A DNA stretch of 64,000 nucleotides from Anaerosacchariphilus polymeriproducens (GTDB taxonomy: Bacteria > Bacillota > Clostridia > Lachnospirales > Lachnospiraceae), in NCBI RefSeq assembly GCF_003363435.1, contig NZ_QRCT01000050.1:1-64000 (forward strand), in the 5' to 3' direction. Both the position numbers and the translations under genes were made by a program. The notes under the pieces are model-generated. The model had not been told where the DNA came from. It made no database searches and saw only the letters and a program-made list of their open reading frames with translations. Within the stretch, counting starts at the first letter, position 1; every line of letters begins with the position of its first letter. Of this stretch, positions 7,608 to 27,350 are shown in pieces.

Positions 7608-7608
7608 T

Positions 7609-9427: not shown

Positions 9428-9430
9428 TCA

Positions 9431-9458
9431 TGAGGGCGGTTATCCGTCCTCTTTTTAT
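9431..9458 (+). terminator. Terminator after the major capsid gene
   Basis: GAGGGCGG pairs with CCGTCCTC (one G-U) around TTAT, followed by TTTTTATT. It probably attenuates transcription so that coat protein is made in excess of the connector proteins. Confidence 0.8.
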
Positions 9459-9472
9459 TGGAGGTGATTAAA

Positions 9473-9948: not shown

Positions 9949-9949
9949 T

Positions 9950-10315: not shown

Positions 10316-10323
10316 GTGATAGG

Positions 10324-10743
10324 ATGGATTTTAAACTAAATATTAAACCAGTAGAAGTCATAAAGAAAAACCACAATATGCAGAACAATGGTAAAGTGCA
10401 AAGGTATATTGATAGCGAATGCATTCGCTTGATGGCTCCATACACACCATTTAAACAAGGAGTGTTGGAAAAGTCAGCAACAGCAGGAACTAAAATCGGA
10501 AGTGGCCAAATAAAACAAAATGCACCATATGCAAGGTATCAATATTATGGAAAGCTTATGGTATCATCTGTTACTGGCAGTGCATGGGCTTCACAGGGAG
10601 AGTCTAAAGTACTTACTGGGAAAGATTTGATATATAATACAGGCAATCACCCAAGAGCAGGGAAAAAATGGTTTGAACGAATGAAAACAGACCACAGAAA
10701 AAGCATCTTGAAAGGTGCTCAAAGAATAGCGAACAGGGGGTAA
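10324..10743 (+). CDS. Minor capsid/tail-completion protein (HK97 gp10-like), 139 aa
   Basis: The protein carries the sequence pattern of Gram-positive phage minor capsid/neck proteins: APYTPFKQGVLEKSATAG, later NAPYARYQYYGKLM and HPRAGKKWFERMK near the C-terminus. These features match the HK97-gp10/minor capsid family at the head-tail interface. Rich in Lys and Tyr. It lies in the usual slot between head closure and tail terminator. Confidence 0.78.
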   Translation: MDFKLNIKPVEVIKKNHNMQNNGKVQRYIDSECIRLMAPYTPFKQGVLEKSATAGTKIGSGQIKQNAPYARYQYYGKLMVSSVTGSAWASQGESKVLTGKDLIYNTGNHPRAGKKWFERMKTDHRKSILKGAQRIANRG

Positions 10744-10745
10744 AG

Positions 10746-11189
10746 ATGAATGTAATTGAAGTAGTGAAGCAAATGTTAACTGATTACCCAAAGATAACAG
10801 AATTTACAAATGATATTCATGTAGATTTTACCGATTCAGAACCAACTAATTTCGGTCTATCATCTACAGGTGACCAGTTATTGAGCGAAGATATTTTAGG
10901 AAATCAAATAAGGCAACACAATTTTGTACTATATGCAGTCAATCAGTCGATTAGTGACTATGACAGACTTGCAAATAGTACTTTTTTATTGGATTTATCC
11001 TATTGGTTGGAAACAGTCAAGGGACAGGAAATAGAAACAACGGTTAACGAGCAAATAAAAACTGGAAAGATAGTAAAAATGAGCAGCGCAAACGCAATGC
11101 TTTATGAAATACCGAACGGAGATATAAATGGCGGTGTAACTTATCAGGTTCAGATATATGCTCAATACACATTAGAAAGTGAGGAATAA
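10746..11189 (+). CDS. Tail terminator/minor capsid protein from phage (Minor_capsid_3-like), 147 aa
   Basis: Two bases after the previous stop. Alpha/beta protein with the segments HNFVLYAVNQSISDYDRLAN and a C-terminal strand VTYQVQIYAQY typical of the small proteins that cap the tail tube. Located directly before the tail tube gene, where tail terminators occur in siphophages. Confidence 0.72.
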   Translation: MNVIEVVKQMLTDYPKITEFTNDIHVDFTDSEPTNFGLSSTGDQLLSEDILGNQIRQHNFVLYAVNQSISDYDRLANSTFLLDLSYWLETVKGQEIETTVNEQIKTGKIVKMSSANAMLYEIPNGDINGGVTYQVQIYAQYTLESEE

Positions 11190-11192
11190 TAG

Positions 11193-11666
11193 ATGGCGAT
11201 TAAAATTGAAAGAAAGTATTTGGCGCACTTTTTGGATTCAAGCTTTGGTGGGACAACCTCTTACATACGTTTAGGACAGGATTTAGAAGAATATACAATT
11301 GAGTTGAATCCAGACGTAGAAACTACTAAAAACATATTAGGTGAAAGTTCTGCAGTAGTAAAAGGATATGAACCTTCCGGTTCAGTTGAGACCTTCTATG
11401 CATATGAAGGGGACGCTTTATTTACACAATTAGCAAGCATTGTAAATAATCGCTCCACTGGTTCATCATTGGAAACGACTGTAGTGGATGTATTAGTAAC
11501 AAGTACCGGTACAGTTACTTGGGCATACAGAGAAGATGTTCTTGTCGTTCCACAGTCTATTGGTGGAGATGGCGCAGGAGTTCAAATTCCTTTTGAAATT
11601 CAATACAGAGGGAATAGAACAGCTGGTACTTTCGATATGGCTACAAAAGAATTTACTCCTGCCTAA
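11193..11666 (+). CDS. Major tail tube protein, 157 aa
   Basis: Beta-rich protein of tail-tube size with ELNPDVETTKNILGESS and the VKGYEPSGSVETFYAYEGD stretch that marks phage tail tube proteins of this group; the end (EIQYRGNRTAGTFDM) forms the last strands. It polymerises in stacked rings. A strong hairpin follows the gene, consistent with high expression relative to downstream tail genes. Confidence 0.82.
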   Translation: MAIKIERKYLAHFLDSSFGGTTSYIRLGQDLEEYTIELNPDVETTKNILGESSAVVKGYEPSGSVETFYAYEGDALFTQLASIVNNRSTGSSLETTVVDVLVTSTGTVTWAYREDVLVVPQSIGGDGAGVQIPFEIQYRGNRTAGTFDMATKEFTPA

Positions 11667-11670
11667 ATTA

Positions 11671-11704
11671 GCGGTGGCTTAGTTCCACCGCCCCTATTTT
11701 GGGG
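11671..11704 (+). terminator. Double hairpin after the tail tube gene
   Basis: GCGGTGG/CCACCGC make a perfect 7-bp stem at 11671-11691, followed by CCCC-TATTTT-GGGG at 11691-11704. There is no clean T-run after the second hairpin, so it may attenuate or protect RNA ends rather than fully terminate; the 74 bp up to the next gene hold no ORF. Confidence 0.6.
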
Positions 11705-11777
11705 TTTAGAAATGTACCCTTAAATAATTTAAATGGCTTAAATCGCAAAATACAAGGTCGAAAAGAAAGGTGATATT

Positions 11778-12215
11778 ATGCAAAGTATTAATTTTGATGA
11801 TGGATATAAAGAGTTTGCAATAAATGGAGACGAATCAAGAGTTATCCGTTTTAACCCTTGTGATATGGGGATATTGGAGAGAATTAAAAAAGCATATGAA
11901 GAAATAGAGAAGGCAGAAGAAGAAAGTAAAGATATTGAATTGAAACCGGATGGCACGGTAAAAGATGATTTAGAGGAGTCCGTAAAAGCATTAGAGGTGT
12001 TTAAAAACGTGATTAATACACAGATAGATTACATTTTTAATAGTGCGGTTGCTGAGATTGCTTTTAACGGTCAGAGTCCATTATCTTTAGTTGGTGGTGT
12101 TCCGTTGTATGAAAGATTTTTAAATGCAATCCTTCCTATTATAGAGAAAGATGTTAAAAAAGAAATGAAAGCGAGTCAAAGGCGCATAAGCAAATACACG
12201 GATGTGGTTAAATGA
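11778..12215 (+). CDS. Tail assembly chaperone-like protein (gpG position), 145 aa
   Basis: A mostly helical acidic protein starting INFDDGYKEFAINGD, with a long charged helix (KKAYEEIEKAEEESKDIEL) and a C-terminal helical domain. In siphophages the two genes between tail tube and tape measure encode tail assembly chaperones. The following gene overlaps by four bases (ATGA), so it is translated by reinitiation rather than by the usual frameshift. Ribosome site AAAGGTG. Confidence 0.72.
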   Translation: MQSINFDDGYKEFAINGDESRVIRFNPCDMGILERIKKAYEEIEKAEEESKDIELKPDGTVKDDLEESVKALEVFKNVINTQIDYIFNSAVAEIAFNGQSPLSLVGGVPLYERFLNAILPIIEKDVKKEMKASQRRISKYTDVVK

Positions 12216-12775
12216 TTGGACAACTTCCAAAAGAATTAAATATTAATGGTGTAAAGAGAGCGATTCGGAGTGATTTCCGTGTGGCTCTTTTAATTTTTCA
12301 AGCATGGAACGATCCAGAACTTACAGAACAAGAAAAATCAATAGTAATGCTAGATTGCCTATACGAAGACCTTGAGACAGCGACAGAGGAAGATTACCAA
12401 ACTTTATTAGAACAAGCTGTCTGCTTCCTTAATGGCGGTGAAGATTCACAGCAGCAGAAACAACCAAAAAAGACTATGGACTGGGAACAAGACGAAAAGC
12501 TGATATTTTCAGCGGTTAACAAGGTAGCAAACATTGAGACAAGGGCGGTCGAGTATCTCCATTGGTGGACATTTCTTAGTTATTTCAATGAGATAGGAGA
12601 AGGACTTTTCACAACCGTCTTAAACATTCGCAGCAAACAGAATAAAGGTAAGAAGTTGGATAAAGCAGAAAAAGACTTTTACCGGGAAAACAAGTCGTTA
12701 ATTGATTTAAAACATAAGTATTCCGCTGAGGAACAAGCTGAAATAGATAAATTGAACGAATTACTGAATTCATAA
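12212..12775 (+). CDS. Phage Gp15-family tail chaperone-like protein, 187 aa
   Basis: The start MIGQLPKELNINGVKRAIRS and the middle HWWTFLSYFNEIGEGLFTTV are typical of the bacteriophage Gp15 family, which sits just upstream of the tape measure gene. Residues about 80-95 are a Gln/Lys-rich linker. The start codon overlaps the upstream stop. It likely binds the tape measure during tail assembly (inference from position). Confidence 0.78.
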   Translation: MIGQLPKELNINGVKRAIRSDFRVALLIFQAWNDPELTEQEKSIVMLDCLYEDLETATEEDYQTLLEQAVCFLNGGEDSQQQKQPKKTMDWEQDEKLIFSAVNKVANIETRAVEYLHWWTFLSYFNEIGEGLFTTVLNIRSKQNKGKKLDKAEKDFYRENKSLIDLKHKYSAEEQAEIDKLNELLNS

Positions 12776-12790
12776 CAAGGGGGTGAGAGA

Positions 12791-15700
12791 ATGGCAGTTG
12801 ATGGAAGTCTCATATTTAACACAAAAGTGGATACAAAAGGCTTTAAAACAGGAGCGAATACAATTAAATCGCAAGCAAGTGGTTTAAAGAGTTCGCTCTT
12901 AGGCATAGGGAAAGCGATAGGCGCAGCTTTTGCGGTTGGCAAAGTAATTGAATTCGGTAAGCAAGCAGTTAAAACAGCGTCAGATTTACAGGAGGTTCAA
13001 AACGTTGTTGACACAGCTTTTGGAGATATGGCTTATAAGATGGAAGACTTTGCAAAGAATTCCATTGAAGCATTTGGTATGTCGAAGTTAACAGCAAAAC
13101 AGGCAGGCTCAACCTTTATGGCTATGGGTGTAGGTATGGGAATAGCGCAGAGTTCAGCGTCCGATATGGCAATAGCATTGACTGGTCTTACAGGTGATAT
13201 GTCAAGTTTTTATAATGTGAGTCAAGACGTGGCAAGTACGGCACTAAAATCCATCTTCACAGGTGAGACTGAAACATTAAAACAATTCGGAATTGTCATG
13301 ACAGAAGCAAATCTACAACAATATGCTTTAAGCCAAGGTATTACAAAGTCAATATCAGCAATGAGCCAAGCGGAAAAAGTGCAGCTTAGATATAGTTTTG
13401 TGATGGCTCAAACAGCGTTGGCGCAGGGTGATTTTGCCCGAACAAGTGATTCGTGGGCGAACCAGACAAGGGTTTTATCCGAACGTTGGAAAGAGTTCTT
13501 AGGTATTCTAGGAGCCGGATTGATACAGATATTAACTCCTGTTGTTAAGTTTTTAAATGGTGTAATGTCTCAATTGATTTCATTCGCTACCACAGCAGGA
13601 AAGGTATTATCTTCTTTATTCAATATCAAGACTGCATCTAAAAGCGCAGCCGGAGCGGTGTCAAACATGGGAAGTGCGGTATCAGATGTTGCGACAGGTG
13701 CAAACAATGCAGGAACAAGCGTTGGAAATTTAGGAAAAGCTACTAAAAAAGCAGCTAAAGAAGCAAAGAAAAGCACAGCCGGATTTGATGAATTAAATGT
13801 CTTAAGCAGCAATATAGCCGATAGTGCTGGTGATGCATCTGACGCTTTAGGCGGTCTAGGTGGTGGCGGTGGTAACTATGGAATGAACGTTACTCCAACT
13901 GTACAAAAGCCGGATACAAAAGAGTTCGATTCTGGAATGTCTGAACTGGGCAAAAGAATAAAATCACTCGCCGTAGAAGTTGGCAACTCATTTATGAAAG
14001 GCTTTAATTCAAGTATTGGAAAACTCAACTTTAAAGAGATCATGGGACATCTTAATGGAATCAAGCAGTCACTTATTGGTATCTTTGGAGATGCAAAAGT
14101 ACAAAGCGCAGCTAAGAACTGGCTTATGTCCGTATCGTATGCTATGGGGCAAGCAGCTGGAAGTATGGCAAGTATTGGCTTGACAGTGGCTGAGTTTTTC
14201 GTTGGCAGCATTGATAAATATTTGCAGCAAAACTCAGACTATATAAAAAATAAGATAATTGAACTATTCGACTTGCATGGAAAGATGGCTCTTATTATTG
14301 GGAGCTGGACACAATTATTTGCCGAACTATTCACAGTATTCAGAAGTGACGATGCCAAACAAGTTGGAGCGGACATAATAGCTATATTTACAACCGCCTT
14401 TTTTGAACTACTTACAATTGCTTATAAGTTTGGCAATGACGTGATGAACGCAATAAAAACACCAATCGAAGAAAACAAAGACGAGATAAAGAACGCACTA
14501 GCAAACTCGATTGGAATAATTTCAGTAATTGTTGGTACTGTAAAGGATGTTGTAAATAATACATTTGAGTCTATCCAGAAATCTTATGACAAATACGTGT
14601 CTCCAGCATTGCAGAAAATCGGTTCAGGATTCAGCATAATATTCAACTCTTTGTTAAACGCTTACAATAAATATTTCGCTCCTGTAATTACTCAAATTTC
14701 GCAGAAGTTGCGTGAGATTGCGAACGGTTCGCTCAAGGACTTAATACAAAACTTTGCCGAATTAGGCGGTAAGATAATTGATGGAGTTGCTACAATTTGG
14801 AAGAAAACAATTGCTCCATTTCTGGCATGGTTTATTGACAAGTTTGTGCCGCCACTAAGCAAGGCTATAGGTATTGTATCAACAATATTTTTAGGGTTAG
14901 TGAATGTTGTTATTGGAATTGTTAGCGGTTTAATAAAATCAATCGGTGGTATTATTGATTTTTTAGTCGGAGTGTTTACATTGGACTGGAAAAAAGCTTG
15001 GAATGGAATCAAGACATTTTTTGCTGGTATTTGGTCTGCAATTAAAGCAATCATAAGTCCTATAGGGAACTTTTTTAAGCAAAAATTTAAAGAGGCATAC
15101 AACAATATTATAAACATATTCAAAAATATTGGAAAGTGGTTTAAAGATAGATATAAAAATGTAACAGACGCTTTTAAAGATGTTGGTACTTGGTTTAAGG
15201 GAAAATTTGACGGTGCTTGGAAGTTTATAAAAGAAGCGTTTTCGTTAAAATCAATTAAATCATTTTTTAATGATGTATGGGACGTTGTTAAAGCACCATT
15301 CGAGTCTGTAGGCACTTGGTTTAAGAATACATTTAGCGCAGCATGGGAGAAAGTAAAAGAGGTATTCAGCACAGGCGGAAAAGTATTTGATGGGATAAAA
15401 GATGGTATAGGCGAAGCTTTTAAGGCAGTAGTTAATACATTGATTCGTGGTATCAATGCAGTTATATCCGTGCCTTTTAAAGTAATCAACGGAGCACTCA
15501 ACACGATTCGCAATATAAGCATTCCAGTAGCAGGTAAAGTGTTTAATGGATTACCAACGATAGACGCTCCACAAATTCCGCAACTAGCAACCGGAACCGT
15601 TGTTCCTGCTAACTATGGTAACTTTTTGGCTATCTTAGGAGATAACAAACGAGAAGCGGAAGTTGTTTCCCCATTATCCACCATGAAACAGGCGCTCAAG

Positions 15701-15835
15701 GAAACCATGCAAGAGTTTGGTGGCGGTGGAGATATTCACCTCACGGTGAACCTAGACGGACAACCAGTGTATCAAACAGTGGTTAAATATAACAAACAAA
15801 ATACACGCAGGACTGGCAAAAATGCTTTAGCGTAG
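12791..15835 (+). CDS. Tape measure protein, 1014 aa
   Basis: Long protein with an N-terminal Ala/Gly-rich helical part (residues about 1-330, including a low-complexity Gly-rich stretch near 358-370), several hydrophobic helices in the middle (about 560-760) and repeated aromatic units GTWFKxxF around residues 790-860. It sets tail length and is ejected into the host membrane during DNA entry. The C-terminal tail (GGGDIHLTVNLDGQPVY) is the conserved end of this family. Long ORFs on the opposite strand here are shadows. Confidence 0.92.
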   Translation: MAVDGSLIFNTKVDTKGFKTGANTIKSQASGLKSSLLGIGKAIGAAFAVGKVIEFGKQAVKTASDLQEVQNVVDTAFGDMAYKMEDFAKNSIEAFGMSKLTAKQAGSTFMAMGVGMGIAQSSASDMAIALTGLTGDMSSFYNVSQDVASTALKSIFTGETETLKQFGIVMTEANLQQYALSQGITKSISAMSQAEKVQLRYSFVMAQTALAQGDFARTSDSWANQTRVLSERWKEFLGILGAGLIQILTPVVKFLNGVMSQLISFATTAGKVLSSLFNIKTASKSAAGAVSNMGSAVSDVATGANNAGTSVGNLGKATKKAAKEAKKSTAGFDELNVLSSNIADSAGDASDALGGLGGGGGNYGMNVTPTVQKPDTKEFDSGMSELGKRIKSLAVEVGNSFMKGFNSSIGKLNFKEIMGHLNGIKQSLIGIFGDAKVQSAAKNWLMSVSYAMGQAAGSMASIGLTVAEFFVGSIDKYLQQNSDYIKNKIIELFDLHGKMALIIGSWTQLFAELFTVFRSDDAKQVGADIIAIFTTAFFELLTIAYKFGNDVMNAIKTPIEENKDEIKNALANSIGIISVIVGTVKDVVNNTFESIQKSYDKYVSPALQKIGSGFSIIFNSLLNAYNKYFAPVITQISQKLREIANGSLKDLIQNFAELGGKIIDGVATIWKKTIAPFLAWFIDKFVPPLSKAIGIVSTIFLGLVNVVIGIVSGLIKSIGGIIDFLVGVFTLDWKKAWNGIKTFFAGIWSAIKAIISPIGNFFKQKFKEAYNNIINIFKNIGKWFKDRYKNVTDAFKDVGTWFKGKFDGAWKFIKEAFSLKSIKSFFNDVWDVVKAPFESVGTWFKNTFSAAWEKVKEVFSTGGKVFDGIKDGIGEAFKAVVNTLIRGINAVISVPFKVINGALNTIRNISIPVAGKVFNGLPTIDAPQIPQLATGTVVPANYGNFLAILGDNKREAEVVSPLSTMKQALKETMQEFGGGGDIHLTVNLDGQPVYQTVVKYNKQNTRRTGKNALA

Positions 15836-15846
15836 AAAGGAGTATC

Positions 15847-16221
15847 ATGGCGCAATTTACCCCAGTATTTAAAGTAGCAGGAATAACCGTTCCTATGCCG
15901 GATAATTATAGTCAAGTTGTATCTGATCTATCAAGCGAAGAATCCGGGAGAACATTAGACGGAACAATGCACAAAGATGTTATAGCAGTAAAGTCAAGTG
16001 TCCCACTTGAATGGTCAAATATGGAATGGGACACAGCTTCTGCTCTGGCTAAAGCGGTAGATGGAAAAACAAGTGTAATATGCGAATACATTGATGTTCG
16101 CAACACATACCAAATGACTGCTATGACCATTTACATAGGTGACAGGACTTTTACCCCAACGACATTTACAACTGACGGTAAAGTATATTGGAAGGTATCA
16201 TTTAGTGAAATCGAGGTGTAA
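15847..16221 (+). CDS. Small tail protein downstream of tape measure (DUF6711-like), 124 aa
   Basis: Beta-rich protein with VFKVAGITVPMPDNYSQV at the start and RTLDGTMHKDVIAVKSSVPL in the middle, a pattern seen in distal-tail-associated proteins of Clostridia phages. It lies where a distal tail (Dit) protein is expected, but is shorter than classic Dit. The GAGGTG inside its last codons serves as ribosome site for the next gene. Confidence 0.65.
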   Translation: MAQFTPVFKVAGITVPMPDNYSQVVSDLSSEESGRTLDGTMHKDVIAVKSSVPLEWSNMEWDTASALAKAVDGKTSVICEYIDVRNTYQMTAMTIYIGDRTFTPTTFTTDGKVYWKVSFSEIEV

Positions 16222-16224
16222 CAG

Positions 16225-18657
16225 ATGATAAATGCATCACAAGAATTTAATAATATAGTGTATGGGCAAGGCGATAAAAATTTTCTTGGCAAAGCAGAAG
16301 TAACTTTGGCAAACAACACATCATTTACACTAGATAGTACAGAAATATGGGACGGTGGAATCCAAATATCAAGCCAAACTACCGATAGTGGTAGTTTTGG
16401 TATTGGGTTCTGCGCGTGCAATCAATTAATATTAAAAGTAAATAATACGAATGATAAATATACCGCTAGTGACTTTAGAGGTGCTGTCATTCGTCCGTAT
16501 ATTGGTTTAAAACTGGCAGACGAAACAATCGAATATGTTAAACGTGGGGTGTTTACTTGTGACATTTCGGAACAAATAGGAAATTATATAAGCATTACCT
16601 GTTTTGATAACATGTATAAGTTAGATAAAGAACTACAAAATATTAGTGGTTTAGCAGCAGGGGCGAAAATAGCCGATATATGCGACTCATGCGGTGTATC
16701 TCTTAAAACAATGGACTTTGATGGCTATGACCGACAGCTAATACTTAATGGTACATTTCCAGAAGGTTGTACATATAGGCAAGCCTTATCTTTTGTCTGC
16801 CAAGCGATTGGGAAATTTGCAAGATTCGACCAGAATGGCCAATTAGAAATAATATGGTATGACAATACTGCTTTTGTTGATAATAACATTCAATTAGATG
16901 GCGGTAAGTTTGATGCAAACGAACCTTATTATTTGACAGGAGATAATGAAGACGGTGGAGACTTTTCTTTTCTTGAAACCGATTCTTGCGACGCAGGAAG
17001 TTTTGAAGCAACAAAGGCTCACTACTTGTACCAGTTGAGTAGTTTAACATGTGCAATTAATGATGTATACATATCAGGTATTAAAGTGAGTTATGATGAA
17101 TCCGCTTATTTATGCGGTACTGCTGATTATGCACTAGCAATAGAAGATAATCCTTATACAGCAGGATTCGAAGAAGAAACTGCTATTTATTTATACACAA
17201 GAATGGCAGGAATGTCATTCCAACCTTTATCGGTATCTTGCTTAAGCAATCCACTGATAGAAGAAGGGGACGCTGTATTTGTCATTGATAGAAAAGGAAA
17301 TATCCACAAAACCTTTGCAACGAATGTCAATTTTACTATACGACAAAATACACAAATAACTTGTGACGCTGAAACACCACAAGCGAACAGTTCAGAATTT
17401 GGCTCCAACACACAGACAATTATACAAACAAGAAATATAGTCAAGAAAGAAATGACCAGTTATGATGTGGCGGTACAATGCTTTAATGACCTTATTTCTC
17501 ACAGTTTTGGATTGTATAAAACCGAAGAAGTACAAACAGATGGCTCTGTCATTTACTACATGCATAATAAACCGACATTAGCGGAATCAATGACTGTATG
17601 GAAACAGACAGCGGATGCTTTTGCAGTTTCCACAGACGGAGGGCAAACCTGGAACGCTGGTTTTGATGCGCAAGGCAACGCAATATTAAATGTATTAAGT
17701 GCAATCGGCATCAATGCGGAATGGATAAAAGTCTTAACTGAATTCAATGTCAATGATAATTTTATTGTAAATTCAAGCGGTCAAATGTCATGTAAAGGCG
17801 CAGTAATCGATAATACTAATTTTAATGTGACAGCTAGCGGAGACACAACTGTAAAATCCATGACAATTGTAAATGATGGATATATAAAACAGGTAGTTGG
17901 CGAACAAAGTAGCAGTTCCATAAAATTTATATCTGGTTCTCTGATTGGTGACATTGGCTCTACTTTAGGTTTTACAATTGGTAGAGTAGACGAAGGGGCT
18001 TATATATTTTTTAGAACAAGCGGTGGAGTAATTAGCGAACCAGAAATGCCACGCAAAAGAATGAAAATATTTGCTGACCGATTGGATATATCAGGAATCG
18101 ACCAAAGCCCAGTCATTTACTTTGACGGTTATAGGTTTAGTGATCCATCATCAACCACAGATACATGGGGAACAATACCAAGAATCGGGAAAAATGACGG
18201 AGTTATGGAAGTGGGTAAATACATTGACTTCCACAATTCAGATGGTAGCACAAGTGACTATGATGCTAGGTTGAATTGTGTAGGCAACACATTAGTATTA
18301 ACTGGTGGCTTAAGTGTATCAGGGACTAAAAACCGTATCGTACAAACCGAACACTATGGCATACGTGCACTTAGCGCATATGAAACAGCAACACCTTACT
18401 TTGGTGATATTGGTAGCGGAAAGACGGACGAAAACGGAGAATGTAGAATCGATATTGAGCCTATATTTTTAGAAACAATTGAAAAAGATTACAAGGTATT
18501 TATACAGCCTTGTGGAATCGGTAGCCTTTATGCAGAAAAGCATGAGGGTTTTTTTATTGTGAAAGGTGCTGTAAACCTTGAATTTGATTTTGAAATCAAG
18601 GGCTATCAAAAAGGGTACAAAGATACAAGATTAACAGAATACATAGAGGAGGAATAA
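16225..18657 (+). CDS. Tail tip/baseplate hub and spike protein, 810 aa
   Basis: Residues about 1-330 resemble the hub fold of gp27/gpD-type tail proteins (IWDGGIQISSQTTDSGSFGIG, then KRGVFTCDISEQIGNYISI); the middle contains a NVLSAIGINAEWIKVLTEFN element common to tail spikes of Firmicutes phages, and the C-terminal third is a beta-rich adhesin-like region. No clear peptidase motif was seen. It likely forms the tail tip that holds receptor-binding proteins encoded downstream. Confidence 0.75.
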   Translation: MINASQEFNNIVYGQGDKNFLGKAEVTLANNTSFTLDSTEIWDGGIQISSQTTDSGSFGIGFCACNQLILKVNNTNDKYTASDFRGAVIRPYIGLKLADETIEYVKRGVFTCDISEQIGNYISITCFDNMYKLDKELQNISGLAAGAKIADICDSCGVSLKTMDFDGYDRQLILNGTFPEGCTYRQALSFVCQAIGKFARFDQNGQLEIIWYDNTAFVDNNIQLDGGKFDANEPYYLTGDNEDGGDFSFLETDSCDAGSFEATKAHYLYQLSSLTCAINDVYISGIKVSYDESAYLCGTADYALAIEDNPYTAGFEEETAIYLYTRMAGMSFQPLSVSCLSNPLIEEGDAVFVIDRKGNIHKTFATNVNFTIRQNTQITCDAETPQANSSEFGSNTQTIIQTRNIVKKEMTSYDVAVQCFNDLISHSFGLYKTEEVQTDGSVIYYMHNKPTLAESMTVWKQTADAFAVSTDGGQTWNAGFDAQGNAILNVLSAIGINAEWIKVLTEFNVNDNFIVNSSGQMSCKGAVIDNTNFNVTASGDTTVKSMTIVNDGYIKQVVGEQSSSSIKFISGSLIGDIGSTLGFTIGRVDEGAYIFFRTSGGVISEPEMPRKRMKIFADRLDISGIDQSPVIYFDGYRFSDPSSTTDTWGTIPRIGKNDGVMEVGKYIDFHNSDGSTSDYDARLNCVGNTLVLTGGLSVSGTKNRIVQTEHYGIRALSAYETATPYFGDIGSGKTDENGECRIDIEPIFLETIEKDYKVFIQPCGIGSLYAEKHEGFFIVKGAVNLEFDFEIKGYQKGYKDTRLTEYIEEE

Positions 18658-18659
18658 AC

Positions 18660-19436
18660 ATGGCCATACAAAATAGGAGAGGTTTAAAGGCTAATTTCAA
18701 CGCAAATAAAATGTTGCCCGGGGAATTCGCATTTTGCACTGATACCGGAGAAGTATTTTATTGCTACAGTGCTGGTAATGTAAAAAGACTAACTACTGTG
18801 GAGGGAGTACAAACATTGTTAAGTTCTTCCCAAGAAGCTTATACAGCATTACAACAGTTAATTGCGGACTTGCAAGAGCAGACAGTATTGACTGGAATCC
18901 TTGCAGATATAGACGCGCTTCAAAACGGCAAGCTTGATAAAACAGGAGATAGTAAAGACAACACGGTTACATTTGCAGAAGCATCCACAGACACGAATAT
19001 AGCAAGCGGTGAGACACATACAACTTTATTCGGAAAACTGTTAAAGAATATAAAGACATTGCGCAGTTTGATAGGTACTCTTGCAAACCTTACAACAACC
19101 GAAAAAAGTAACTTAGTAGGTGCAATAAACGAAATAGCAGGTCAATATGGGAAAAAGATTGACATAAACAACAGTGGTTACGAACAGAACACAAGAGGTT
19201 TAAGAACAGTAACTAATGCGAATATAAATGAGGTGGCGCACACTGGTGATTATTATTGTGTAGGATGCACGAACAGACCGGTAGAAGTCAATGGAATCCT
19301 TGAAGTCAAAGCACAGGACTATGACACGATCTGGCAAGTATACACACCATACACTTCGGAAATCATATACACTCGCAAGAAAGTGCCTGGTTCCGGCTGG
19401 CTTGCGTGGAAGAAGATAACACCAGTAGCATTATAG
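18660..19436 (+). CDS. Tail fibre protein with pyocin-knob-like C-terminus, 258 aa
   Basis: The N-terminus (RRGLKANFNANKMLPGEFAF) is a widespread tail-fibre attachment start. Residues about 45-165 are helical and coiled-coil-like with TTEKSNLVGAINE. The C-terminal 80 residues (GDYYCVGCTNRPVE ... PGSGWLAWKKI) fit the pyocin_knob carbohydrate-binding fold. It probably contributes to host binding at the tail tip. Starts two bases after the previous stop. Confidence 0.78.
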   Translation: MAIQNRRGLKANFNANKMLPGEFAFCTDTGEVFYCYSAGNVKRLTTVEGVQTLLSSSQEAYTALQQLIADLQEQTVLTGILADIDALQNGKLDKTGDSKDNTVTFAEASTDTNIASGETHTTLFGKLLKNIKTLRSLIGTLANLTTTEKSNLVGAINEIAGQYGKKIDINNSGYEQNTRGLRTVTNANINEVAHTGDYYCVGCTNRPVEVNGILEVKAQDYDTIWQVYTPYTSEIIYTRKKVPGSGWLAWKKITPVAL

Positions 19437-19451
19437 ACAAGGAGTTGAGAC

Positions 19452-21569
19452 ATGAGAGAAATTACTATAACGCAAAAAGAGCAAGCTTTAACTTGTTCTG
19501 AACCAATAACTTTGCAACAGTACGAAAGCAATATAACAAAATTGATTTTCCAGACAGATGCAAATATAAATGATTTTGTTTATGCCGGTTTTGGTAGAAG
19601 TGGGACGAATGACTACATATTAAAAGAATTAGATGATAAATATGGGGTTGCAATTGATTCAAGTATCACAAGAACACCGGGTAGAGTACAAGTGATATTA
19701 CTTTGTACAAATAAAGAAATTATAGATGGAAAATTGAGTAATACAGGGTATGTATATATTACGAAGCCGAAAGAATTAATAACAGTGTCTAAAAACTTTA
19801 TTAATGGAGCCATTAGTGTTATTCCGCAGATTGTAACAGACACAAGCCATATTGTACCTACTATATCCGTGGAGGAAACAGACACAGGGGTATCGATAAA
19901 GGTAGAAGATAGGGACGGTGTAAAAACTGCTAATATCCCAAAAGGTACAGGCTCAACCGTTGATTTGACCGGATATGCAACAAAAGACTATGTTACAGAA
20001 ACAATAAACGAAATACAGATACCGGAATCAACACCGGTTAAAGGAAAGAAGTTCTTGTTTATGGGGGATTCCATTACGGCAAACCCCAATGGTTATATTT
20101 CATATGTGGCAAATATTTTAGGAATTACTACAACAAATATGGCGGTGAATGGTGCGACTTGGCGAGATCGTAACGACTCAACAAATACGATTTACTCCCA
20201 GCTTAAAAATGTAGTTGAAAATCAGCAAAATTACATCCCGGATGCGATAGTTATAAGTGCAGGAACGAATGATAGCATAGCAACGATTTATTCCGCAGAT
20301 ACGCTTTACACGGCAATGGAACCATTTTACACAAACGCAGGAGGTGTTGTTAACTTAGAAACTGTTGACAGAAAAAACATTTTCGGAGCAACCAGGTATG
20401 TTGTAGAAACTTTGAAAAAGATATATCCAAATGCAGATATTTTCCTGTTATCACCAATTCAGAGCGCAATCAATGTCAAGGACTATAAAGTTGCACTTTC
20501 GACAGGAATCATATTGCAGGAGGTGGCCAAGAGGTTATCTGTTAATTTTATAGATTGTAATAATTGTGGTATTACAACCATGAATGCAGATCTGACGCTT
20601 GTGGATGGTCTACACCCAAATGATACAGGGGCAAAACTGCATGGGCAGTATGTGGCTAATAAGATTCTTAACTTTTATACCACTCAAAGGTTCGCAGTAT
20701 TTTCCAATACAGTGCAAAGTATCATCACTTTAGATTCGACAACAGTATCGACAACAGTGGGAGCCTATCAGCAGATAAAAGCGAGTGTTTATCCATATAC
20801 CGTGGAAAACAAAAACATTATTTGGAGTTCGAGCAATGAAGTAGTTGCAACGGTCTCTAATGGCTATATTACTGGCGCAGGAATTGGAACTTGTACGGTT
20901 ACTGCAAAAGCAGAAGCAGACCAAACCAAAACACTTGTATTTAATGTTACAATTTCCGTAGCAGTTGACACCGGTTTAATATTTGAAGCAAATGAACTAG
21001 GAATTACAGGTGATACGTGGAAAGATAATATAACTAATATTCCGGCAAACTTAGCAAGCCCTGTCACAGCGTCTAGCGGAGTTGTGGTCAATGGTAAGTT
21101 TGACTTCAATGTATCAGGCTTAAATCTTGGTACAAAAACAGACTTTGCAGTTGTTGTAGATGCATATATACCAGACGATTTGACAGACGATTCCTTATTA
21201 TTGGCTATTGGCTCCGACACTATAACAGGAGGTGACGAAAACGACAATATATTATTTTTTGTAGATGCATGGAACTATGATATGGGTTGTTGCCGAGTTA
21301 TTTCAAATTGGACTTATTCGGAGCAGAAATCAACAACATATGTTAAAAATGCAAGCAATAAAATAGTGCTCAATGTATCCCTAGCGAATAATACCGTTAC
21401 TATTTACACAAATGGGACATTATCGACTACGGTAACTCATGCAATCAATGCAAGTCAGTTAAAAACAATCTCAAATGCTTCTGGAACTTCAACACCATTC
21501 AGTGGTAGATACAACAGCATTCAGATATATAATCACTTATTGACAAGTGAAGAAATAGCAAGTTTATAA
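19452..21569 (+). CDS. Receptor-binding protein: SGNH hydrolase, Ig-like and lectin domains, 705 aa
   Basis: Residues about 1-190 are an N-terminal tail-attachment region. Residues about 197-410 are an SGNH/GDSL hydrolase: the nucleophile block GDSIT (S207), oxyanion-type GTND, and catalytic pair in VDGLHPND (D385, H388). Residues about 425-510 are a bacterial Ig-like (Big_2) domain (IIWSSSNEVVATVSNGYITG). Residues about 515-705 resemble a concanavalin/LamG lectin. The likely role is deacylation (for example O-acetyl removal) and binding of host surface polysaccharide during adsorption; substrate is unknown. Confidence 0.82.
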   Translation: MREITITQKEQALTCSEPITLQQYESNITKLIFQTDANINDFVYAGFGRSGTNDYILKELDDKYGVAIDSSITRTPGRVQVILLCTNKEIIDGKLSNTGYVYITKPKELITVSKNFINGAISVIPQIVTDTSHIVPTISVEETDTGVSIKVEDRDGVKTANIPKGTGSTVDLTGYATKDYVTETINEIQIPESTPVKGKKFLFMGDSITANPNGYISYVANILGITTTNMAVNGATWRDRNDSTNTIYSQLKNVVENQQNYIPDAIVISAGTNDSIATIYSADTLYTAMEPFYTNAGGVVNLETVDRKNIFGATRYVVETLKKIYPNADIFLLSPIQSAINVKDYKVALSTGIILQEVAKRLSVNFIDCNNCGITTMNADLTLVDGLHPNDTGAKLHGQYVANKILNFYTTQRFAVFSNTVQSIITLDSTTVSTTVGAYQQIKASVYPYTVENKNIIWSSSNEVVATVSNGYITGAGIGTCTVTAKAEADQTKTLVFNVTISVAVDTGLIFEANELGITGDTWKDNITNIPANLASPVTASSGVVVNGKFDFNVSGLNLGTKTDFAVVVDAYIPDDLTDDSLLLAIGSDTITGGDENDNILFFVDAWNYDMGCCRVISNWTYSEQKSTTYVKNASNKIVLNVSLANNTVTIYTNGTLSTTVTHAINASQLKTISNASGTSTPFSGRYNSIQIYNHLLTSEEIASL

Positions 21570-21592
21570 AGGCCTAAACGGTCTTTTTTTAT
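21569..21592 (+). terminator. Terminator between tail and lysis genes
   Basis: AGGCC and GGTCT form a short 5-bp stem around TAAAC, followed by seven T. Separates the receptor-binding gene from the holin. Confidence 0.65.
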
Positions 21593-21620
21593 TACAAAAA
21601 ACAGAAAGAGAGGAATTATC

Positions 21621-22058
21621 ATGGAAAAAATCAACAGCTTTAAAATTATTTTATTAACAGTATTCGGAGTTGCAGGAAGTGGACTATCAAAATTACTTGG
21701 AGGATTTGACATGACATTACAAATATTAATAGTTCTTATGATTGCTGACTACATCACTGGTCTTATTGTGGCAGGAGTGTTTAAAAAGTCAGGAAAAACT
21801 GAAACAGGTGCCTTAGAGAGTAGAGCAGGATGGAAAGGCTTGTGTCGCAAAGGCATGGTTCTATTAATTGTTTTGGTAGCAACTCAACTAGATAAGGTTA
21901 CAGGAATCGATTTTATAAGAAATACAGTCATTTTAGGATATGTTGCAAATGAAGCTATTAGCATCACAGAAAATGCTGGCTTAATGGGCGTACCTTTACC
22001 AGGTGTGCTAACAAACGCAATAAATGTATTAAAACAAAAAGCAGAAAGTGAGGAATAG
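21621..22058 (+). CDS. Phage holin (toxin secretion/lysis holin family), 145 aa
   Basis: Membrane protein with hydrophobic helices at about residues 8-27, 34-55, 75-95 and around 105-120, plus the family stretch MIADYITGLIVAGVFKKSGK and the SRAGWKGLCRK loop that define the Phage_holin_4/Cph1-type holins. It makes membrane holes at a programmed time so the endolysin reaches the wall. The endolysin gene follows after three bases. Confidence 0.9.
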   Translation: MEKINSFKIILLTVFGVAGSGLSKLLGGFDMTLQILIVLMIADYITGLIVAGVFKKSGKTETGALESRAGWKGLCRKGMVLLIVLVATQLDKVTGIDFIRNTVILGYVANEAISITENAGLMGVPLPGVLTNAINVLKQKAESEE

Positions 22059-22061
22059 AGT

Positions 22062-22991
22062 ATGAGAGACATCACAGCATTACAACCAGAGGTGCAAGCA
22101 ATAGCGAATAGGTTAGTAGAAAAATGCAGAGAACAAGGTTTAATCATTAAAATAACCGATTGTGTGCGCACCAAAGATGAACAAGACGCTTTATATGCAC
22201 AAGGCAGGACAAGAGCAGGCTCTATTATTACCAATGTTACATACCCACGTTCCAACCATTGTTGGGGCATAGCTTTTGACTTTTGCCGAAATGACGGAAC
22301 AGGCGCATACAACGATACTGACGGATTCTTTACAAAAGTAGGACAGGTAGGAAAGTCACTAGGTTTATTCTGGGGAGGTGATTGGACAAGCATCAAGGAT
22401 AAACCACATTTTCAACTTGAGACCTATGGAACGTGGAGCAGTCTGCAAGCTAGATATGGCACACCAAGCCGATACTTCGCATCATGGGGCGGTTCTATTC
22501 CTGTGATTCAAAAGGAAGAAGCGAAAGTGGTAGTAAATGATGATATTGTCGCAATTAAAGTTTTACAAAAATTCTTGAACAAAAAAGGTTATCGGGACAA
22601 TGAGGGCAAGAAGTTAGTTGAAGATGGTCTAAAAGGAAATAAGACAGTATTCGCAAATACTAAGTTTTTACAAACTATGTTAAATAAAGACGGTTATGCA
22701 GATGCAGAAGGAAGAAAGCTATATGTAGATGGCTATAAGGGCGAAAAGACAGAACAAGCCATGAGAAAGGTTATTTGCAAGGTGCCCGATAAAGATTCTA
22801 AAGGAAGAAACATCTGGAAAGCACCAAAAAATAAAGGCAACGTTGTATTTTACATTCAGACGAACGTCAGTACCAAAAATGATAAATATTATGGCTTTAA
22901 TACTCAAAATGCTGTAATAAGACAGCAAGCGAATCATAACATATCACAAGATGGTATCACAGGATTTAATACACTGAATAGTACATTATAA
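22062..22991 (+). CDS. Endolysin: M15-type peptidase with C-terminal wall-binding repeats, 309 aa
   Basis: Residues about 1-145 are a peptidase M15/VanY-like domain: zinc site motif SNHCWGIAFDF (His and Asp ligands) and KDKPHFQLE (third ligand). It cleaves peptide cross-links (L-Ala-D-Glu or D-Ala bonds) in peptidoglycan. Residues about 165-309 hold repeated units resembling peptidoglycan-binding domains (KVLQKFLNKKGYRDNEGKKL and FLQTMLNKDGYADAEGRKLY). No signal peptide, consistent with holin-dependent release. Confidence 0.88.
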   Translation: MRDITALQPEVQAIANRLVEKCREQGLIIKITDCVRTKDEQDALYAQGRTRAGSIITNVTYPRSNHCWGIAFDFCRNDGTGAYNDTDGFFTKVGQVGKSLGLFWGGDWTSIKDKPHFQLETYGTWSSLQARYGTPSRYFASWGGSIPVIQKEEAKVVVNDDIVAIKVLQKFLNKKGYRDNEGKKLVEDGLKGNKTVFANTKFLQTMLNKDGYADAEGRKLYVDGYKGEKTEQAMRKVICKVPDKDSKGRNIWKAPKNKGNVVFYIQTNVSTKNDKYYGFNTQNAVIRQQANHNISQDGITGFNTLNSTL

Positions 22992-22993
22992 TT

Positions 22994-23023
22994 AGAGGGG
23001 TGGAGAAATCCACCTCTTTTTTA
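22994..23023 (+). terminator. Terminator after the lysis genes
   Basis: GGTGGA/TCCACC stem with GAAA loop, extended by AGAG/CTCT, then six T. It closes the late operon. Confidence 0.85.
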
Positions 23024-23056
23024 TTGCAAATTTTTAAAAAAGTTTATTGGAAAGTG

Positions 23057-23085
23057 TTGACATCACTACTTTAAAGTAGTATAAT
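23057..23085 (+). promoter_or_regulatory. Consensus promoter with a 16-bp palindromic operator between -35 and -10
   Basis: TTGACA (23057-23062) and TATAAT (23080-23085) are both perfect and 17 bp apart. The spacer contains ACTACTTT/AAAGTAGT (23065-23080), a perfect palindrome ending on the first base of the -10. A dimeric repressor bound there would block RNA polymerase, so expression of the three downstream small genes is probably repressor controlled. Confidence 0.85.
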
Positions 23086-23113
23086 AAATATATCAAATGA
23101 AGGAGGTTAAAGG

Positions 23114-23224
23114 ATGAAGAAAAAGCAAAAGAAGAAACTGAAAAAAGACATTTCCGAAATCATCAAAGTTGTGGTCGCAACAATGATATGTGAGATTATC
23201 AGAAACATCTTTTTCAAAAACTAA
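23114..23224 (+). CDS. Small basic amphipathic peptide, 36 aa
   Basis: Preceded by AGGAGG eight or nine bases upstream and by a perfect promoter. Residues 1-11 are almost all Lys (MKKKQKKKLKK), residues about 13-33 form a hydrophobic helix that could insert in the membrane (ISEIIKVVVATMICEIIRNI). Followed by a strong stem-loop. Size and promoter resemble phage-borne small toxins or lysogeny-expressed peptides; no family is recognised. Confidence 0.6.
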   Translation: MKKKQKKKLKKDISEIIKVVVATMICEIIRNIFFKN

Positions 23225-23230
23225 ACAATG

Positions 23231-23255
23231 GGGGAGAGTACTTCTCCCTCTCCCC
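23231..23255 (+). terminator. GC-rich stem-loop after the 36-aa gene
   Basis: GGGGAGAG and CTCTCCCC pair perfectly around TACTTCTCC. A T-run is lacking (TAACTTTAAC follows), so it may be an attenuator or stability stem rather than a full terminator. Confidence 0.5.
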
Positions 23256-23285
23256 TAACTTTAACATAGAAAGCGAGGAATTTCA

Positions 23286-23444
23286 ATGAGAAATAAAATA
23301 TTATTTGGAATTTATTTGACACTATTTTTAATATCAATTATTACTAAGAACAATATAATAAACGGATTCACAACCACATACGCGACTTGCATGATAACAT
23401 ATCTATTATTTAGATTATATGATAAACGGAAAAGGAGTGAATAA
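23286..23444 (+). CDS. Small membrane protein, 52 aa
   Basis: ATG with GCGAGGAA upstream. Two hydrophobic segments (about residues 4-20 and 30-44) flanked by basic ends (YDKRKRSE) predict a two-helix membrane protein. Its C-terminal codons carry the AAAGGAG ribosome site of the next gene, so the two are coupled. No family recognised. Confidence 0.5.
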   Translation: MRNKILFGIYLTLFLISIITKNNIINGFTTTYATCMITYLLFRLYDKRKRSE

Positions 23445-23445
23445 T

Positions 23446-23616
23446 ATGGAGGAATTAATCCCACTTGCAGATTACGCAAGGATGCACGGAATTACAACAG
23501 CCACAGCCAGACAGCGAGCAGCGAGAGGTTCATTCAAAACAGCCAGAAAAATGGGGAGAGATTGGGTTATAGACAAAAACGAACCTTATATTGATAATAG
23601 AAAAAAAGAACAATAA
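23446..23616 (+). CDS. Excisionase-like HTH DNA-binding protein, 56 aa
   Basis: The start at 23446 has AAAGGAG nine bases upstream; an in-frame ATG at 23419 lies inside the previous gene and lacks a site. The sequence (IPLADYARMHGITTATARQR then a basic wing ARKMGRDWVID) is a MerR/excisionase-type winged HTH as used by Xis proteins. Small Xis-like proteins close to an attachment site often control recombination direction; this one lies 1.1 kb from the proposed right attachment site, so it is a candidate directionality factor (inference). Confidence 0.7.
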   Translation: MEELIPLADYARMHGITTATARQRAARGSFKTARKMGRDWVIDKNEPYIDNRKKEQ

Positions 23617-23617
23617 A

Positions 23618-23642
23618 AGGGCGGTTCATTGCGAACCGTCCT
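23618..23642. terminator. Bidirectional terminator between convergent genes
   Basis: AGGGCGGTTC and GAACCGTCCT pair over ten positions (one G-U) around ATTGC. On the minus strand it is followed by a T-rich tract, serving the leftward cassette; on the plus strand the tail is AT-rich. Confidence 0.8.
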
Positions 23643-23644
23643 AA

Positions 23645-23839
23645 TTACTTGTCTTTATTTAGTTTTTTTATTGCTCCTTGTATCAAAGATACAATAACAT
23701 AAGTAATAGCGAATATTAATAAGTCGAAAAAGAAATTTTGAATGAAATTGCCAGTAAACAGGCTTGTGTTATCTTCAATAATTCCTCTAGCTATACGACT
23801 TATAATATAAGTAAAAATAAACCTAACTGCTATATCCAT
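23645..23839 (-). CDS. Small membrane protein downstream of the GG-leader peptide, 64 aa
   Basis: Start ATG at 23839 with AAGGCGG seven bases upstream; a TTG at 23842 is in frame but less likely. Two hydrophobic helices (about residues 3-20 and 33-56) flank a polar loop (EDNTSLFTGN), ending in basic KKLNKDK. It begins 12 bases after the stop of the peptide gene, so they are one operon. By position it could be an immunity protein for the peptide (inference). Confidence 0.55.
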   Translation of the reverse strand: MDIAVRFIFTYIISRIARGIIEDNTSLFTGNFIQNFFFDLLIFAITYVIVSLIQGAIKKLNKDK

Positions 23840-23851
23840 CAAAGTACCGCC

Positions 23852-24112
23852 TTATTTCTTTCGATATGTATCACATGTATGACTAAAGATTTTAAAATAT
23901 TCTGTTTGCCTCATTGGATCGTCTGCTTTCGGACCTCTTTTTAAATTATTCCATATTTCGTTTTTATGAGCGATTACCCAATCAAGTCCCTTCCCGATTA
24001 TATAGCCACCAATAAATTCAGCTATCTTAGTTTGAACTGCTGTTCCACCAGATACGTCAATCATTTCTTCTTTATTCAACATGTTACTGTTTTTAGGTAA
24101 TGTTAATTTCAT
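23852..24112 (-). CDS. Double-glycine-leader peptide, putative bacteriocin or signal precursor, 86 aa
   Basis: The ATG at 24112 has a perfect TAAGGAGG ribosome site. Residues 1-23 look like a class II bacteriocin leader: MLNKEEMIDVSGG ends with the Gly-Gly cleavage motif and has hydrophobic residues at the usual positions before it. Residues 24-86 would be the mature 63-residue peptide, with an amphipathic Gly-containing first half (EFIGGYIIGKGLDWVI) and a basic tail with one Cys. No processing ABC transporter is visible nearby, so export would use a transporter elsewhere. A good promoter and a small membrane protein gene flank it. Confidence 0.65.
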   Translation of the reverse strand: MKLTLPKNSNMLNKEEMIDVSGGTAVQTKIAEFIGGYIIGKGLDWVIAHKNEIWNNLKRGPKADDPMRQTEYFKIFSHTCDTYRKK

Positions 24113-24181
24113 TATTTCCTCCTTAGAATACCATTTTATAGTTACATGCACTATACTAGAAAACACTTTTTTACAACATAC

Positions 24182-24210
24182 ATTATAAAATGAAAGATTT
24201 ATCCTTGCAA
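24182..24210 (-). promoter_or_regulatory. Promoter of the GG-leader peptide operon
   Basis: On the minus strand TTGCAA (24210-24205) and TATAAT (24187-24182) are 17 bp apart. Transcription would start about 60 bases before the ATG. This suggests expression by the housekeeping sigma factor in the lysogen. Confidence 0.65.
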
Positions 24211-24237
24211 TATTTTTATGTTGACATAATTCTACAA

Positions 24238-24265
24238 TTAAAAAACCCCACGCAATAGCGCAGGG
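24238..24265 (-). terminator. Terminator for the zinc-ribbon gene
   Basis: Read leftward, CCCTGCGC pairs with GCGTGGGG around TATT and is followed by six T. It insulates the zinc-ribbon gene from the GG-peptide operon. Confidence 0.8.
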
Positions 24266-24344
24266 CATGTATGTGTAATAGGTGAGACATTTTTAATATA
24301 TATGTAGACCGGTTGAAAGTAAAGTTATTTTAATCGACTAATTT

Positions 24345-24632
24345 TTAATTATTAGATCGCCACATAATTCTTAATATAATTCCGATAATAAAATAAGTAC
24401 CACAAGTTAATATACCAAGAACAATTATCCAGAAAGTTCTTAAGTACCACGGCAATCTTCTTACTTTGTCATTTGTAACTGCAGAGGCATTGCTTGAAGC
24501 AGTATTATTAATTACTATATTTTTATCATCCGTTTTCAATTCCTCTACTTGCTTACCGCATTTGGGACAAATAATACAATCAATATCAATAATTTCACCG
24601 CAATGTTTACAATATTTCGTTTCTTTTTCCAA
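24345..24632 (-). CDS. Zinc-ribbon membrane protein, about 95 aa
   Basis: An N-terminal zinc ribbon (YCKHCGEIIDIDCIICPKCGK, two CxxC pairs, shortened here by one reading) is followed by a polar linker and a C-terminal hydrophobic region (WYLRTFWIIVLGILTCGTYF, then IIGIILRIMW). The start is probably a TTG at 24632 with AGGGAAGG upstream; another TTG at 24662 would add ten residues. No ATG is available. Similar zinc-ribbon/TM proteins are common in Clostridia and phages without assigned role. It is the prophage gene closest to the cotJC junction. Confidence 0.6.
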   Translation of the reverse strand: MEKETKYCKHCGEIIDIDCIICPKCGKQVEELKTDDKNIVINNTASSNASAVTNDKVRRLPWYLRTFWIIVLGILTCGTYFIIGIILRIMWRSNN

Positions 24633-24742
24633 AATCCTTCCCTCTTTCTTTCGTTTTCGCAATTAGTTAAATAATTGACTTTATTCCATAATATTACATT
24701 TCTAGGTGTTTAGTCAATAGTTTGTTTAGTGGTTAATGTCAA

Positions 24743-24952
24743 TCATTTATGAGCCAATTCTTCTGTGCCAATATCATTTAATGTAGCGATTGCTTCCGGA
24801 GTAATCATAGTAAATCTTTGACTTAAATATCTTACGGCAGCTCCTAGTTCACCATCAGGTCCTCCGTATTGAGAAATAATATTCGTTGCCATAGCAGGAT
24901 TGGGATTTTTAATTTTAACTGGATATTCTAATATCTTTTCATAAGTCCACAT
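24743..24952 (-). pseudogene. cotJC: 5' fragment of cotJC (spore coat Mn-catalase family), interrupted by the prophage
   Basis: The 69 residues match the start of CotJC: MWTYEKILEYPVKIKNPNP, ISQYGGPDGELGAAVRYLSQR and IGTEELAH. Full-length CotJC is about 190-220 residues and continues after ELAH with the remaining di-manganese helices; here the frame reads one Lys and stops. A proper ribosome site (AAAGGAG) and a mother-cell-type promoter precede it, so the 5' end is intact. Everything left of it belongs to the prophage, so the 3' part of cotJC is expected beyond the other prophage end, outside the window. CotJC is an inner coat protein with manganese catalase homology. Confidence 0.85.
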
Positions 24953-24984
24953 TAATTAAACTCCTTTAAGTAATATTCATAGGT

Positions 24985-25011
24985 TATTATATGATGTATT
25001 TATATATAAGT
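24985..25011 (-). promoter_or_regulatory. Candidate SigK-type promoter of cotJC
   Basis: On the minus strand AC (25011-25010), 16 bp, then CATATAATA (24993-24985) matches the B. subtilis SigK pattern AC-N16-CATANNNTA. The -10 also resembles the SigE element. Consistent with mother-cell expression during sporulation; matched by eye only. Confidence 0.45.
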
Positions 25012-25090
25012 TCGAAATGTTTTTTGAAAGTATCATAATCTCTTTCAAGAAACATAAAATATATAATAAAATATTAGCTAAGAGGTTTTT

Positions 25091-26838: not shown

Positions 26839-27102
26839 TTATAAACGAAAATTAGCTTCATAATCCCAAGGCCAAGGTTCGTTGATCCATTGCCACGGAT
26901 AAGGACTCATACTATGAGAACTAATCATACCATAATTCTGATTGTATTCATCGGTCAGATGGCTCAATTGTTTCACATAAGCATTGTATTTGGATAGCGC
27001 TTCCTGATCAGAAGGATGAGTATTGAGATACAATTTCAGATCTACTAACATTACATGGACTGCTGAAATTTCTTTTTTTAAGTTCATACTGTCGTTTCTC
27101 AA
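26839..27102 (-). CDS. cotJB: Spore coat protein CotJB, 87 aa
   Basis: Matches CotJB along its length: VMLVDLKLYLNTHPSDQEAL, then YNAYVKQLSHLTDEYNQNYG and the aromatic C-terminus PYPWQWINEPWPWDYE. It is a small structural protein of the spore coat in the mother cell. The TTG at 27102 is the likely start because AAAGGAGGG lies eight bases upstream and it overlaps the cotJA stop by four bases; the first ATG (27087) is too far from a site. Normally cotJC follows cotJB directly; here the protease gene intervenes. Confidence 0.9.
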   Translation of the reverse strand: MRNDSMNLKKEISAVHVMLVDLKLYLNTHPSDQEALSKYNAYVKQLSHLTDEYNQNYGMISSHSMSPYPWQWINEPWPWDYEANFRL

Positions 27103-27350
27103 AATAGACCCTCCTTTTGTTGACTGAAATAACGCTGATCTGAACCATTATATGGACTGAATAATTCAGGAAATGCAGTCCCTTTTTTCAGAGCATCCAT
27201 AGGACTATATAGGGAGCACATAAATTGATAAGGCACATAGGCAGCGGCTAATCTTACATTTTTTATCATCATCTCTTGTGGGATACAATTCATGTTATTA
27301 TTGTATTCTATATCATACATTTCTTTATTTGGCATTCTGCAATTTGCCAT
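27099..27350 (-). CDS. cotJA: Spore coat-associated protein CotJA, 83 aa
   Basis: Carries the CotJA core LAAAYVPYQFMCSLYSPMDA followed by KKGTAFPELFSPY. A small spore coat component, usually the first gene of cotJABC. Ribosome site AGAAGGAGA precedes the ATG. Overlaps cotJB by four bases and lies downstream of the rubrerythrin gene, probably co-transcribed from the SigE-like promoter at 28048-28020. Confidence 0.9.
   Translation of the reverse strand: MANCRMPNKEMYDIEYNNNMNCIPQEMMIKNVRLAAAYVPYQFMCSLYSPMDALKKGTAFPELFSPYNGSDQRYFSQQKEGLF

Follow-up and report, generated by a model that had tools for sequence, protein, structure and literature searches.

The window analysed here, a 64,000-nucleotide stretch of the Anaerosacchariphilus polymeriproducens genome, opens with the late module of a prophage (packaging, head, tail and lysis genes), which lies to the left of the 5' part of the spore coat gene cotJC (Table 1). 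This cotJC piece is a 69-aa ORF (MWTYEKILEYP...IGTEELAHK) that matched only positions 1–69 of the 284-position Pfam Mn_catalase profile (PF05067; E 8e-20). Likeness to cotJC stopped at H68 and was followed by a lysine codon and a stop codon, in agreement with a sequence-only reading of the same DNA, which had noted that only the first 69 codons are present and that family likeness is lost after IGTEELAH. That reading had also placed cotJC beside cotJA and cotJB; both are indeed near, but they are not contiguous with it, as a subtilase gene (25091-26797, opposite orientation) sits between cotJC and cotJAB.

Table 1. Positions of prophage genes and of the cotJC region in the window.
Feature	Position	Strand
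Prophage, right part, with its late genes and right end (contig start lies within the phage)	1..24748	
Terminase; a single ORF with both small- and large-subunit domains	2362..4353	+
Portal protein	4355..5737	+
Minor head protein	5845..7401	+
Head scaffolding protein	7856..8452	+
Major capsid protein	8474..9427	+
Tail tape measure protein	12791..15835	+
Tail protein	16225..18657	+
Holin	21621..22058	+
Endolysin, M15 peptidase and peptidoglycan-binding domain	22062..22991	+
cotJC 5' exon, codons 1-68, plus one phage-derived codon and stop	24743..24952	-
Attachment-site region, GAATTGGCTCAT, codons 65-68; counterpart GAATTAGCTCAT at the 3' exon on contig C33	24749..24760	-
cotJC upstream region with ribosome site; divergently shared with the subtilase gene	24953..25090	-
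cotJB	26839..27102	-
cotJA	27099..27350	-

The two halves of cotJC and the prophage between them

A PF05067 search of the whole genome to which the window belongs returned two matches only, the window ORF and a second piece on another contig (G000:C33:6012-6380, forward strand; profile 62-197, E 6e-31), and no third cotJC sequence was found in this assembly by the profile search. The piece on C33 reads KELAHLEIVGTMVRQ... up to the natural CotJC end and starts directly after the stop codon of a 510-aa large serine integrase (L003, C33 4470-6002). The remaining codons, from about ELAHxE, had been predicted to lie at the far end of the prophage beside a recombinase of the serine or tyrosine type, and they were found there; the outcome that would have refuted the prediction, a complete cotJC elsewhere without a 3' half at that end, was excluded in this assembly. 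Both cotJC ends have in common a short direct repeat, GAATT[G/A]GCTCAT (codons 65-68). When joined in frame, the halves give a 200-aa CotJC of the Mn-catalase type, which aligned with solved Mn catalases without a gap over the joint. The orientation is also consistent: once C33 is reverse-complemented, the 3' part sits at the prophage's left end and is read leftward like the 5' part. The criterion for a split sporulation gene, phage DNA flanked by cotJC codons 1-68 on one side and by the remainder on the other, was met, and Spo0A, cotJA and cotJB are all encoded in this genome.

The integrase carried resolvase, recombinase and zinc-ribbon domains (PF00239, PF07508 and PF13408) and matched the phage integrase family phrog_95. 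Upstream of it, C33 encodes an HTH repressor and an ImmA-like peptidase, which together with the integrase and the late genes of the window fulfilled the gene-content criterion for a temperate tailed phage; from its gene content, the prophage looks like an ordinary temperate phage. No recognisable sporulation promoter was found before the integrase, which lies within the repressor/ImmA operon, and no directionality factor was identified in the assembled parts of the prophage, although one could be encoded in the unassembled middle. Both cotJC pieces are contiguous with phage DNA, but the assembly leaves the prophage unjoined between them and lacks its replication region; the break is probably explained by ~92%-identical DNA that occurs on C11 and C33. 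C11 (L028) carries a second prophage end with a tyrosine-type integrase and shares this DNA with C33:1-2700. Assignment of the missing middle to a contig was attempted and abandoned, as C38 and C41 proved to be two related phage modules and C8 and C35 also look phage-like. No match was obtained when the phage part was compared by megablast with 50,697 phage records.

Split cotJC genes and their recombinases in related genomes

The family was sampled with 397 genomes, of which 244 had a PF05067 match; the 77 with only a weak or partial best match were searched again. A gene was called split by automatic pairing of complementary, separated cotJC pieces, and contiguous or frameshifted cases (G037, G453, G603, G619 and G661) were left out of the count. 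By this measure, cotJC was split in 53 of the 244 family genomes that have it, which is a lower bound because genomes also holding an intact copy were left out of the second search, and a class-wide draw gave 34 more genomes with a split gene. Where both pieces were on one contig (49 joints), the strand was always the same, the order was correct in 48 cases, and the distance between the pieces was 1.6 to 157 kb. The single-copy control gene RRF showed no split pattern in 385 genomes, four of which had an uncharacterised second match. Rejoining was in frame for 30 of the 31 first-fetched pairs, the exception (G281) needing manual reading; in three of these 30 (G261, G348 and G272) the 3' piece itself ends at about codon 178, where another break is apparently present.

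The joints clustered in three regions of the PF05067 profile, namely A (~32), B (~62-69, which includes the window) and C (~150). The corresponding break codons lie near 31, 62-65 or 136, with further breaks near codons 104 and 178. No crossover point was read from the longest stretch of identity at any one locus; instead, the identity tracts of each class intersect at a conserved codon, from which we infer crossover at ~Gly31 (A), Gly62 (B1), Glu65 (B2, the window class) and Glu136 (C).

Several genomes carried cotJC in more than two pieces. G258, G396 and G110 have the order exon 1, A element, exon 2, B element, exon 3, and the closed chromosomes of G513 and G767, from one genus, likewise have three exons with A and B elements on one strand; in G532 the gene is in four pieces. 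If the interruptions are truly serial, sporulating cells would assemble cotJC by several DNA excisions. Three arrangements were unusual. The pieces are 675 kb apart and in the wrong order on G733:C1 and 157 kb apart on G426:C1, both possibly through rearrangement between att sites, and on G060:C68 (L345) two near-identical 3' exons, each beginning at the site-B joint, lie ~3.5 kb apart.

A large serine recombinase was present in the intervening DNA of all 31 first-fetched split pairs, usually near a joint. As an independent test, 80 genome loci were picked solely by likeness to the window integrase (41-50% identity) and then scanned for cotJC. At least 51 of them abut a cotJC fragment broken at codons ~62-68, and the same holds for 15 of 67 viral contigs. 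Cultured, non-pathogenic strains among the carriers include Lachnotalea glycerini DSM 28816, Clostridium methylpentosum DSM 5476 and Blautia parvula NBRC 113351. About 28 of the 80 homologues (L197, L203, L217, L221 and others) had no adjoining cotJC fragment. In a maximum-likelihood tree, 55 recombinases were grouped by target region, with 3 changes compared to 19.6 in shuffles; the C clade and the window-integrase clade had full support, and the A and B labels each occurred in two places. SigmaK-like sites were found upstream of 6 of the 55 recombinases, against an expectation of 0.84 and a level that was not reached in any of 400 shuffles, which suggests direct sporulation control of the recombinase in some elements. 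This is weak evidence, because a simple consensus was used and two of these matches are orthologous.

Element erosion, selection on the exons and probable excision in the mother cell

The elements ranged in size from 1.6 kb up to whole prophages, and eroded elements of a few kb, without phage structural genes, retained a recombinase and intact exons. Shorter elements tended to have shorter recombinases (Spearman 0.52, p 0.003): among elements below 4 kb, 4 of 7 had a recombinase of less than 440 aa, compared to 2 of 23 larger ones (p 0.016). At L161 (G309) and L336 (the A element of G396), the recombinase had kept the zinc ribbon and lacked most of the coiled-coil region. A Listeria integrase stripped of its coiled coil has been reported to recombine attL with attR, which the wild-type enzyme does not (PMC3783163). 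By analogy, recombinases lacking the coiled coil are plausibly domesticated, excision-only enzymes that would need no directionality factor; if they work as predicted, they would illustrate a route from phage integrase to developmental excisase. Some truncated recombinases may equally be dead, and those in the small elements of G154 and G349, where both exons are intact, may be inactive. Overall, we lean towards a view of cotJC as a recurrently and serially interrupted gene of Clostridia. In this view, the serine recombinases form about five lineages, each specific for one of some four codons; a single gene accumulates as many as three elements, leaving four exons; and elements shrink to little more than a recombinase, in some cases without the coiled-coil motif.

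The separated exons were under strong purifying selection overall (dN/dS 0-0.11). Between G012 and G336, the 198 cotJC codons compared differ by 20 synonymous changes and by none that is non-synonymous, and dN/dS was 0.029 for the 3' exon of G105/G396 and 0.022 for the 5' exon of G030/G347, with 0.05 for the recombinase of the latter pair. The three exons of G513/G767 gave values of 0.093, 0.106 and 0.054, and the recombinase of the A element that these genomes share gave 0.109. From these comparisons, the interruption of cotJC in G513 and G767 apparently predates the divergence of the two species, and the gene has nonetheless stayed conserved.

Taken together, the purifying selection on separated exons, the eroded elements that keep a recombinase and the occurrence of a common element in congeners strongly suggest that cotJC elements are excised in the mother cell, although excision was not observed. 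For the window, we have good confidence in the following reading: as sporulation proceeds, the mother cell most likely loses the phage with its integrase from cotJC by excision, as happens with skin and SPbeta, and CotJC is restored. A temperate phage with a large serine integrase would have inserted into cotJC at the conserved EELAH segment, near codon 65, so that the sequenced chromosome carries cotJC as two exons; because the target gene is used only in the mother cell, lysogeny would be of little cost during growth. A directionality factor would switch the integrase to excision in the mother cell, where the joined cotJC would be expressed, providing intact CotJC for the spore coat, with the prophage being kept in the forespore. 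Everything that follows integration is inferred, including when and in which cell type excision takes place, the existence of a directionality factor and whether the system is active in this strain. In C. difficile, skin excision needs the recombinase CD1231, which is constitutive, and the directionality factor CD1234, which is under sigmaE and SpoIIID (PMC5025042). A comparable division between a constitutive recombinase and a regulated directionality factor would fit the window integrase in its repressor operon.

It is possible, but in our judgement unlikely, that cotJC is a mere conserved landing site that is dead in lysogens, with precise excision occurring only on induction or by rare loss. 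In B. subtilis and C. difficile, proteins of the CotJC type have been reported as dispensable or redundant (PMC11222575, PMC12122855), the ordinary appearance of the window prophage would suit such inactivation, and a split copy can decay, judging from G165, in which both pieces have diverged and the GGPDGE motif is lost. However, the strength of purifying selection in several species pairs sharing the split is difficult to reconcile with a dead gene, as are the few-kb elements that lack structural genes and still have recombinases and intact exons, and the piling up of two and three elements in one gene without decay.

Alternatively, each element may have been inserted after species divergence, such that exon conservation reflects selection before insertion and splits are short-lived. 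Congeners often differ in whether cotJC is split or intact, and in G012/G336 the recombinase dS (0.083) is lower than that of cotJC (0.13-0.24), so this element may be younger than the species split. We nevertheless regard recent insertion as quite improbable, since the A element common to G513 and G767 has the same cargo gene and a recombinase dS of 0.82, similar to that of the exons (0.43-0.91), the elements of G030 and G347 share cargo at a recombinase dS of 2.9, and element sizes indicate long erosion. An assembly or binning artefact, through contamination or contig breaks inside cotJC, could be invoked only from the placement of the window genome's two pieces on different contigs of a draft assembly and is scarcely credible given that phage DNA is contiguous with both pieces, that closed single-contig chromosomes (G513, G767, G318, G390, G281 and G559) have the same one-strand arrangement and that the control gene was unsplit; for the phenomenon at large, it is already refuted.

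Relation to known intervening elements, and element cargo

Excision of the cotJC prophage from the mother cell, as preferred here, would have close precedents. The skin element in sigK of B. subtilis and C. difficile is likewise phage-derived, has a large serine recombinase and splits a mother-cell gene, but its target is a sigma factor gene and not a coat-protein gene; in cotJC, several recombinase lineages act at different codons, and a directionality factor and excision have not been shown. SPbeta in spsM of B. subtilis is similar in being an apparently complete temperate prophage that interrupts a gene for the spore envelope and carries a serine recombinase at one of its ends, and its mother-cell excision was shown experimentally (PMC4191935), although gene, phage and host class differ. 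Single elements with serine recombinases also interrupt the sporulation genes yabG (yin, in C. botulinum; PMC10747680) and spoVFB, spoVR and gerE (vfbin, vrin and gin, respectively; PMC5595907). These four are known from one or a few cases each, whereas cotJC splits occur in 22% of the sampled family genomes that have the gene, at several codons and serially. Outside this phylum, the cyanobacterial heterocyst genes nifD, fdxN and hupL carry excised elements. These resemble the cotJC elements, in resemblance only, as several independent elements in developmental genes that are removed in a terminal cell, but the developmental programme is a different one.

The interrupted sporulation genes named in the literature consulted are sigK, spsM, spoVFB, spoVR, gerE and yabG (PMC4191935, PMC5595907, PMC10747680), a handful of genes with mostly single cases, whereas cotJC is interrupted in about one-fifth of the sampled family members having it. 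No report of an interrupted cotJC was found in the open-licence full-text literature, subscription papers being outside the scope of the search. Prophage phi027 of C. difficile R20291, located by cotG, resembles our case in adjoining a CotJC-like gene and was considered as prior art, but was rejected because it is inserted outside that gene, which is described as an intact ORF lying downstream (PMC11222575, PMC12122855). The window is thus a further case of the known intervening elements of sporulation genes, and the recurrent, serial interruption of one gene by multiple lineages is likely new; this is not proved, because only open-licence literature was searched. Whether phages settle in mother-cell genes because such sites are safe for the phage or because the host benefits can be tested by comparison and at the bench, and the loci collected here provide many serine integrases with inferred attB sites. 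For annotation, many truncated cotJC genes may be exons.

Several elements carried additional genes. Next to the recombinase, the site-B elements of the congeners G030 (L145) and G347 (L337) encode a full-length Spo0A paralogue (receiver and Spo0A_C domains) and an HTH regulator, and the element of G349 (L142) encodes a stand-alone Spo0A_C protein. Spo0A_C proteins were rejected as a general element regulator, being found inside the elements of these three genomes only. The 4.7-kb A element of G513 and G767 (L349/L350) encodes an 861-aa secreted-type protein that by eye looks like a dockerin-bearing glycoside hydrolase. Also judged by eye, the small cotJC element of G121 (L144) carries a CidA/LrgB-like pair and a phosphatase-like protein, and that of G154 (L157) a SulP-like transporter.
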